Shown here piece by piece: positions 22,802-43,946 of a DNA stretch of 64,000 nucleotides. Numbering within the stretch: position 1 is the first letter of the stretch; each line of letters starts with the position of its first letter. The notes beneath the pieces are model-generated. The model saw nothing but the letters and a program-made list of their open reading frames with translations. It searched no databases and was not told the DNA's origin. The stretch lies in contig NZ_SCHL01000003.1 in assembly GCF_004099695.1 (NCBI RefSeq), forward strand, positions 62,001-126,000, given 5' to 3'. A program made the position numbers and the translations under genes. Source of the DNA: Methanosarcina sp. MSH10X1 (lineage in GTDB: Archaea; Halobacteriota; Methanosarcinia; Methanosarcinales; Methanosarcinaceae).

Positions 22802-23262
22802 AATATTTCCCCTTTACTTTGTCTATTCCCTCTCAAATTCCCTGGCGGCATTTGGGGCGTTTGTATTCTCCTTTTCCGTAGACTTTTCATATTCTGCCTG
22901 ATGCCATTCCCGGAATCATTATCCATAGCGTTTACGATATTTTCCTGCAAAGCAGGAAATGGATACTTTTTAAAGTCTCTTGAAAGAAGCTTAACTTCTT
23001 TCGTCAGTATGAATATAATGATGATACTATTTAAATGTTAGCATTTTTCTATAAAAATGTGTTAAATATTAACATATTTTTCTAGTTTAGTAACAATATA
23101 TAATTGTAAATTAGTAAATTTTTAAGATAAAACTAACGAAAATTCTCAGTTAAATAAATGTTTTGAATTACGGTTTATCCACATTTATATATGTGAGTCA
23201 ATAAAAAGAGATTTCGCATTAAAGTTAAATTTAATAAGAAGATTTGTAGTGTTCACTGGCAG
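22802..23262. other. Intergenic region with palindrome and promoters
   Basis: No gene is called. It contains the perfect hairpin TTTCCTGC-AAA-GCAGGAAA at 22941-22959, upstream of the leftward DUF2795 gene, and an AT-rich tract. TTTATATATG near 23184-23193 is a good TATA box for the rightward transglutaminase-like gene. Confidence 0.55.
23184..23193 (+). promoter_or_regulatory. TATA box of the transglutaminase-like gene
   Basis: TTTATATATG matches archaeal box A. It would start a transcript near 23210-23220, about 45 bases before the ATG at 23263, which argues that the gene with the internal TAG is transcribed. Confidence 0.45.
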
Positions 23263-23883
23263 ATGAGTAAAATGCATACCGAAAGCAACAATCTTCAGGA
23301 CTACCTCAAAAAGAGTGAGGTCATAAACTATGACCACAGGCTGATTATTGAGAAGTGTCTTGAACTGCAGAGAGGCACTGAAGACGAAATTTGTCTTACT
23401 TAGAAGGTTTATGAGTTTGTCCGGGATGAGATTCACCATTCAGGCGATATAAACGCACAGGAGGTTACCTGTACGGCATCGGAGGTTCTGGAGTTCGGTC
23501 ACGGGATATGCTGTGCTAAAGCTCACCTGTTTGCAGCCATGCTGAGGTTTTTCGGGATACCTGCCGGATTCTGTTATCAAAAACTTTCTTCAAGCCGTGA
23601 CATTAATAAGAAGTTCCTGCACGGCTTAAACGCTGTATATTTAAAAGATTTAAACAAATGGATAAGACTGGATGCCAGAGGCAATAAGCCAGGAATTGAT
23701 GCTCAGTTTTCGATATATGAAGAAAAGATTGCAAAGCCGGTCCGCAAAGAGCTTGGGGAAGAAGATAATCCCGTAATCTTCATGGAGCCCAATCCGACTG
23801 TAGTTCAGGTATTAAAGAAAAGTAGTAACATGGAAGAATTATGGGCACAGTGGGAACTCGGGTTGAAAGATTTATCTGGCTGA
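23263..23883 (+). CDS. Transglutaminase-like protein with in-frame TAG (pyrrolysine candidate or nonsense mutant)
   Basis: One frame runs from ATG 23263 to TGA 23883 (206 codons) interrupted only by TAG at codon 47 (23401-23403). Both sides read as coherent protein: before it, LQDYLKKSEVINYDHRLIIEKC; after it, KVYEFVRDEIHHS, then the transglutaminase core with catalytic Cys in GHGICCAKAHLFAAMLRFFGIPA, a His in FLHGLNAVYL and an Asp in WIRLDARGN. This is a papain-like amidase/protease or transglutaminase fold. Methanosarcina decodes TAG as pyrrolysine, so a full-length product with Pyl47 is possible; a recent nonsense mutation with a dead gene is the alternative. No ribosome-binding site is evident. 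Confidence 0.7.
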
Positions 23884-42482: not shown

Positions 42483-43946
42483 CTACTTCTGCTTCATTGT
42501 TGCAAGCATGGCTGCAAAAGCTCCTGCTGAGATAGTATCCCCTATTCCCACCGTAGATTTCGGTTTCTCGACAACTTTGGAAGGAATGATAACCGCATTA
42601 TGATCTGCCCCGTAAAGATATCCGAACTCGAATTCCTCAGGAGTGCAGAGCCTCTTCCCTACACAGTAAAGCTTGAAGTTTTCCAGGTCTTCAATGCCTT
42701 TACCTGAAACCGGAACTTCCAGCCCTGCGGCTGCCTCGTCAAGATTTTCAATATCTCCCGTGAGGGCTTTAGCCCCGGCAAGGGTTGAGGAAAAGAGCAG
42801 GGCGTCCCTGTGTTCTTTAAGTGTAAGAGGATGACCTTTTGCAAGGATACAGATGTAAAACCCGAGAGAATGCACGTGAACCCTTTCAAGCGACAGGTCT
42901 TTTAAAAGCTGAACAGCTCCATGATAAAGCGAGGTTATCCCGTTCTCCTCTTTTCTTATCACGGAATAAGAGAGTTCTTCATGCCCCAGGACGTTCAGGG
43001 CATTTGCCACCTCCACAGTATCAAGGCCCAGGGAATGGACATGTCTGGCAACGATCTCAGTCAGGATGGCCTTTCTTATAACCCGGTTCTGGATGGATGT
43101 AAGCTCCACATGGATGCGGAGTTCGGGATTTAAAGCCTTGAGTTTCTCGATAACTTTCACGGAATGCGAAACATAGTCTTTATACGTAGACCCATCCTCA
43201 TATTCCTCTTTTATCATCTGATAACCTGAAAGCATCGCCCCGTCAATCGGGTAGAGCGATTCAAGCTGCTCATAGATTTCCCTGTCCATGTCCAGACGAA
43301 TCCATTTCGGGCGTGAGGAAATTATCAGGCGGTTATCTCTTGGCACCGTGAAATTGTTCCCGTTACAGGTTACTTCCAGACCTCTGGAATACTCAAAGAT
43401 CCAGTTGACTTTTGACTCGATTCCGGGTTTGAAGGCTTCCTTAGGAGGTTTGAGCACAACCTTTCCGTCTTCTAATTTAGGATGCAGAAGATTGTCAGAA
43501 GCTGCAAAATAGTCTGCCTGTTCTTCAGAAAGCCAGGGAATATATGCAACCACTTTTTTTAGCTCGAGGCGGGCAAGAAGGTTCGAAATTATTCCTGCCT
43601 GGCCGCCCATGCGCGCATAGTCAAAACCCAGGTGAGCTTTTAACCACTCATGAATATCTGACGTATGGGTAGGGATTTCAGCGGCTTTTCCCTCTCGCAT
43701 GGAAATCAGCAGGCGAGCCATGAAATCCAGGGGCTCATTTATTTCCCTCGGATAAGTTTCAACTCTTTTCTGAATGTCAACCTCGTCAAAAAGCTCCATA
43801 AGCCTGCACAGGTCTTCATCCGTAAGGTGTTTTATAGCATCGATATTGCTGTTGTAAGCTACAAACATACCTTCCAGATAAGGAAGGGACTTTTTGACAT
43901 TGTAAAAAGCGTCGGTATGGCGCTGTTCCCATTCTTGTATATCCAC
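42483..43946 (-). CDS. pfkC: ADP-dependent phosphofructokinase / glucokinase
   Basis: A 487-residue member of the archaeal ADP-dependent kinase family (ribokinase-like fold) used in the modified Embden-Meyerhof pathway. Motifs are VAYNSNIDAIKHL, YARMGGQAGIISNLLA, VPRDNRLIISSRP, GYQMIKEEYEDGSTYKDYV, HVELTSIQN and the catalytic STVGIGDTISAGAFAA. Methanosarcina enzymes of this type phosphorylate fructose 6-phosphate and often glucose, for glycogen use. The gene ends in TAG, with an in-frame TAA three codons later. A perfect palindrome encloses its TATA box. The upstream in-frame ATG at 43946 is a good start. Confidence 0.92.
   Translation of the reverse strand: MDIQEWEQRHTDAFYNVKKSLPYLEGMFVAYNSNIDAIKHLTDEDLCRLMELFDEVDIQKRVETYPREINEPLDFMARLLISMREGKAAEIPTHTSDIHEWLKAHLGFDYARMGGQAGIISNLLARLELKKVVAYIPWLSEEQADYFAASDNLLHPKLEDGKVVLKPPKEAFKPGIESKVNWIFEYSRGLEVTCNGNNFTVPRDNRLIISSRPKWIRLDMDREIYEQLESLYPIDGAMLSGYQMIKEEYEDGSTYKDYVSHSVKVIEKLKALNPELRIHVELTSIQNRVIRKAILTEIVARHVHSLGLDTVEVANALNVLGHEELSYSVIRKEENGITSLYHGAVQLLKDLSLERVHVHSLGFYICILAKGHPLTLKEHRDALLFSSTLAGAKALTGDIENLDEAAAGLEVPVSGKGIEDLENFKLYCVGKRLCTPEEFEFGYLYGADHNAVIIPSKVVEKPKSTVGIGDTISAGAFAAMLATMKQK

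Follow-up and report, generated by a model that had tools for sequence, protein, structure and literature searches.

A single-copy gene for a transglutaminase-core (cysteine-protease-like) protein in a Methanosarcina species (genome G000) carries one in-frame TAG, and the most satisfactory explanation, which we hold to be fairly probable, is that this amber codon was acquired neutrally and is in part decoded as pyrrolysine. The window analyzed here is a stretch of 64,000 nucleotides (contig C33, positions 62001-126000) of a 3.56-Mb assembly. The open reading frame lies on the forward strand at 23263-23883 and consists of 206 codons from the ATG at 23263 to the TGA at 23881-23883. Its sole internal stop is the TAG at 23401-23403 (codon 47), and the frame is otherwise undamaged, as described in the initial annotation. 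The methionine at codon 4 (Met4, 23272) is better conserved as a start than the ATG at 23263; counted from it, the TAG would be codon 44. The 46 codons before the TAG (23263-23400, forward strand) would on their own give a short peptide lacking the catalytic core, and the frame after it (23404-23880, forward strand) holds the three residues C83, H120, and D137. Reinitiation downstream of the TAG was considered and rejected, as the first in-frame ATG, GTG, or TTG is the ATG at 23539 (codon 93), which falls after the catalytic cysteine. A catalytic product would thus require readthrough, because the interval from the TAG to C83 contains no start. The upstream TATA box that had been pointed out, TTTATATAT at 23184-23192 on the same strand, is conserved in one of the two nearest relatives, G103, and almost conserved in the other, G080.

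Read with the TAG as a residue, the protein matched the Pfam transglutaminase core (PF01841; E = 3.9e-15, residues 35-138) with a score of 56.5 bits against a cut-off of 23, and no NCBIfam model was found for it. C83, H120, and D137 were invariant across an alignment of 27 sequences, which bears out the earlier recognition of a catalytic Cys, His, and Asp; judged from the family, they probably form the catalytic triad. A sequence search for a relative of known structure gave none at E 0.01. The structure predicted from the 27 sequences (pLDDT 89.8, pTM 0.90) had as its best solved match 3isr (Z 13.5, 3.4 A, 154 residues), a putative cysteine protease of Cytophaga hutchinsonii. The fold resembles that of the transglutaminase-core cysteine proteases, whose Cys-His-Asp set is conserved in the archaeal family, although the identity between 3isr and the archaeal protein is 14%. 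In the predicted fold, residue 47 sits within the helix 42-56, before the helix that begins at C83, and is not one of the three catalytic residues. Relatives of the protein were matched in 52 other genomes of the family, and the closest, judged by this gene, are those of Methanosarcina genomes. In addition, two MAG contigs labelled Firmicutes and Clostridia (L073 and L075) encode proteins 53-54% identical to the archaeal one, which suggests transfer between domains or misbinned contigs.

Judged by its gene content, the cell is able to read TAG. A tRNA-Pyl with anticodon CTA (CUA) was found by ARAGORN immediately 5' of pylS, and the PylS protein scored above the curated cut-off of TIGR02367. 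Directly after pylS come three ORFs with the order and lengths expected of pylB, pylC, and pylD, and we take them to be these genes. In the same cluster, mtmB contains one internal TAG together with a match to the Rfam element PYLIS_1 (RF01982). The assumption of the initial annotation that the organism has a pyrrolysine tRNA and decodes TAG thus agrees with these findings. TAG is also a rare terminator, ending 1 of the 47 conserved ORFs in the window, as had been noted, and 9 of the 310 ORFs in a 631-kb sample of the genome, a share near the 4-5% published for Methanosarcina (PMC4153887). The only conserved gene of the window that ends in TAG codes for an ADP-dependent phosphofructokinase/glucokinase (42483-43946, reverse strand; assigned by Pfam); its frame extends three codons more in G103, and readthrough would add little. 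The Pyl genes of Methanosarcina are constitutively expressed (PMC4153887), and an introduced UAG in M. acetivorans was read as pyrrolysine with an apparent readthrough of 20-30% (PMC2933860). Because the cell carries the genes for reading TAG as pyrrolysine, the full-length transglutaminase-core protein is probably still made.

Pyrrolysine is a derivative of lysine, and the residues found in relatives at the TAG column are almost all basic. In the genus alignment, the 19 other full-length Methanosarcina orthologues all have a Lys or Arg codon there (17 with Lys, encoded by AAG in 11 and AAA in 6, and 2 with Arg, encoded by AGG). Among the 26 relatives in the wider alignment, 25 had Lys or Arg. 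The exception, the distant L029, has Gly, as does a second distant genome, L088. AAA is the codon of G103 and G080, the nearest relatives, and AAG prevails in more distant orthologues, so that a one-step change of AAG to TAG is the simplest path; the ancestral codon was most likely AAG. Derivation from AAG had been proposed in the initial annotation, and AAG is indeed the commonest codon at this column. A TAG at codon 47 was absent from all other species examined. A scan of genome contigs for further strains of the species matched other organisms only, in a set from which G000 itself may be missing. A structured element 3' of the TAG was also searched for, and neither a PYLIS nor any other Rfam match was found up to E = 5, with a folding z-score of -0.33. 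Since there is no PYLIS or unusual structure and the TAG is absent from the other species examined, the pyrrolysine would most likely be incidental and without function in this protein. On the other hand, the conservation of the column as Lys or Arg means that the bulkier pyrrolysine side chain may not be harmless at this site.

Selection on the gene was assessed on the terminal branch of G000 with a GY94 codon model with F3x4 on an IQ-TREE tree (203 codons). The dN/dS of this branch was 0.152 for the full gene, 0.140 for the 43 codons before the TAG, and 0.160 after it, and the corresponding background values were 0.189, 0.254, and 0.175. The branch did not differ from the background (LRT 0.38, 0.72, and 0.05 for the full gene, before the TAG, and after it), and dN/dS = 1 was rejected in all three cases (LRT 26.7, 8.4, and 17.7). 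Lys or Arg in homologues and a dN/dS below 1 downstream of the TAG had been named in advance as observations that would favor readthrough, and both were made. No relaxed selection and no further lesions were detected on the branch, within whose test error a short recent neutral phase would fall. With the 3.84 threshold and interpolation between computed grid points, the fraction of the branch that could have been neutral is limited to about 18% in the full gene and to about 26% in the part after the TAG. The branch also spans time preceding the origin of the TAG, and therefore a very recent pseudogene is compatible with these values. Apart from the TAG, the changes found only in G000 at columns invariant in all others were V26I, I43T, and the loss of F201 (numbering from Met4); after the TAG, the columns invariant in other species were unchanged up to F201 near the C-terminus. 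Within the genus alignment, S41C and I43T are unique to G000; situated one to three codons 5' of the TAG (which is residue 44 in this numbering), they could be local decay.

The main rival to partial decoding of a neutral TAG is a very young pseudogene. On this reading the gene is dispensable, the TAG is a recent loss-of-function change in it, and such readthrough as occasionally happens has no bearing on fitness; we regard this as a good deal less probable, but worth serious weight. It is the main rival because a gene with a history of repeated loss might here be starting to disappear. The transglutaminase-core match was undetected in ten Methanosarcina genomes, four of these 99% complete, the gene is broken in Methanosarcina G093, and an additional copy is broken in G089. 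Lesions were also present in sister genera, with a TAA near the N-terminus in G045, a TGA in G031, and a frameshift in G057. In another sister-genus genome, G051 (L079), a TAG occupies an otherwise invariant Trp and several conserved residues are lost, which seems to be genuine decay and contrasts usefully with G000. As the gene is undetected or broken in several genomes, it is dispensable on long time scales. However, the G000 gene has no second lesion, its dN/dS is not relaxed, and its promoter-like box is kept, and a cell that decodes pyrrolysine is expected to make some full-length product regardless (PMC2933860). The two readings grade into each other and differ in whether the partial supply of enzyme matters.

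A second Methanosarcina species also has a TAG in this gene. The orthologue in G075 (L018 1501-2124, corresponding to G075:C1:4374260-4374883) has an independent in-frame TAG and an otherwise intact frame. Counted from the conserved Met, this TAG is codon 9, a position held by Gln (CAG or CAA) in the remaining Methanosarcina orthologues. The G075 branch is likewise constrained, with a dN/dS of 0.21, indistinguishable from the background, and the first in-frame ATG, GTG, or TTG after this TAG is codon 47. Internal TAGs thus occur in 2 of the 20 full-length Methanosarcina genes, at different positions. Independent TAGs in the same gene of two species, together with a catalytic product that needs readthrough for want of a start between the TAG and C83, might be taken to suggest a pyrrolysine-dependent switch, in which the level of Pyl-tRNA, and with it methylamine use, sets the amount of full-length enzyme and the TAG is kept by selection. 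Against this, the position of the TAG is not conserved, 18 of the 19 remaining full-length orthologues in the genus are free of TAG, and no PYLIS or structure was found; a second TAG among 19 orthologues would be only mildly surprising at the rate in our sample. We consider such a switch very improbable. The stronger version is if anything even harder to credit: selection would maintain the dependence of the gene on pyrrolysine, with the enzyme made only when the cell is charged for growth on methylamines, and this dependence would have originated on two or more occasions within Methanosarcina, each time at another codon.

The internal TAG of the transglutaminase-core gene is more than chance clutter. 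ORFs intact in one of three genomes were traced in the others over stretches of about 631 kb in G000 and 680 kb each in G103 and G080 (311-432 genes per pair), and clean stops were picked by inspection. Most apparent internal stops proved to be start-site shifts, C-terminal shifts, or shadow ORFs and were discarded. Among these were a 191-aa ORF with four stops, a shadow antisense to a longer open frame that presumably codes for ribosomal proteins, and a TAG upstream of the Met of a gene that we take to be hypD, which was a start shift. Two multiply damaged genes were left out, namely a TrmB-like remnant of G103 that contains a TGA and a KUP-like gene of G080 whose local frame is scrambled. 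Comparison of about 311 genes with one relative left the transglutaminase-core TAG as the sole clean internal stop in G000. All three clean stops in the three-genome sample were TAG, the other two being in a cyclase-like and a GNAT gene of G103. The former, a squalene-hopene-cyclase-like gene at about G103:C1 2373595, has TAG at codon 60, where G000 and G080 have Gln; it also has an upstream TAA near codon 8 in G103 and G080, probably before the true start, and its intact counterpart is G000:C22:107232-107975. This gene is a further candidate for a pyrrolysine site. The GNAT acetyltransferase gene (G103:C1, about 2420857-2421486) has a single in-frame TAG at codon 50, where the intact G080 gene has AAG. 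Given the codons one step from each stop, the chance of three TAGs in three is 0.04-0.08; counting a further, non-TAG case gives 0.13-0.21 for at least three in four. The excess of TAG is suggestive only, because we selected the clean cases manually and could see the type of each stop. These data also bear on a sequencing or assembly error at one base, to which the site could in principle be due, as it differs from AAG by one A/T difference and is known from a single assembly. However, completeness of the assembly is 99.95% and its contamination 0.17%, the error would have had to strike the very site at which a stop is the frame's only defect, and events of the same kind occur in other complete genomes, so an error seems very unlikely.

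Taken together, partial decoding of a nearly neutral TAG would proceed as follows. A Lys codon, most likely AAG, would have mutated to TAG in one Methanosarcina species, and Pyl-tRNA(CUA) and the release factor would then compete at the UAG. Some ribosomes would place pyrrolysine at residue 47 and go on to complete an active enzyme, and the remaining ribosomes would release a useless 46-residue peptide. If the UAG is partly read in this way, the mutation would therefore have cost little, and the TAG would be a tolerated change with no role for pyrrolysine in the active site. In this scheme we infer transcription of the gene, insertion of pyrrolysine, activity of the product, and neutrality of the TAG. 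The proposal in the initial annotation of a pyrrolysine candidate is thus upheld by the decoding genes, the residues at the column, and the constraint on the gene, but not as a site with a special role, there being no PYLIS and a TAG in one species. The gene is best regarded as a candidate incidental pyrrolysine site, a known kind of event and no new use of pyrrolysine. A literature search for a transglutaminase with pyrrolysine returned nothing relevant, and the G000 or G075 gene may have been listed earlier in supplementary material. If pyrrolysine is inserted, this would add to the few pyrrolysine proteins that lie outside methylamine metabolism and would support the drifting of UAG into ordinary genes once the cell is able to read it. 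Such TAG-bearing genes would otherwise be dropped as pseudogenes in genome annotation. The case also makes testable how frequent in-frame TAG is, compared with TAA and TGA, in constrained genes of pyrrolysine-decoding archaea.

The G000 gene shares an in-frame TAG in a pyrrolysine-decoding genome with the methylamine methyltransferases MtmB, MtbB, and MttB. However, pyrrolysine is catalytic in those enzymes and its position is conserved, whereas the TAG of the G000 gene is neither conserved among Methanosarcina orthologues nor at a catalytic residue, and a PYLIS like that matched in the mtmB of the same genome is missing from it. Nearer parallels are found outside the methyltransferases. A survey of 2013 reported further likely neutral amber cases (PMC3639795), and Ca. 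Methanomethylophilus alvus has 16 putative pyrrolysine proteins beyond methyltransferases and methylamine metabolism (PMC4153887). Like the G000 gene, these have a sporadic TAG, homologues without it, and a genome that avoids TAG as a terminator, but Ca. M. alvus belongs to a different methanogen order with stronger avoidance of TAG (1.6% versus 4-5% in Methanosarcina; PMC4153887). Thg1, the tRNA-His guanylyltransferase of M. acetivorans, is of the same genus. According to an account that cites Heinemann 2009 and Abad 2010, it gained a pyrrolysine that was physically observed and is not essential for activity (PMC2933860). Both genes have a species-specific in-frame amber codon in a gene that is not a methyltransferase, with homologues that lack it, and the G000 TAG has the features of such a neutral site: it is confined to one lineage, lies one step from a codon found in its relatives, and stands in a constrained gene (dN/dS 0.15). 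They differ in that the pyrrolysine of Thg1 has been seen physically and is dispensable for activity, whereas that of the transglutaminase-core protein is predicted from sequence.
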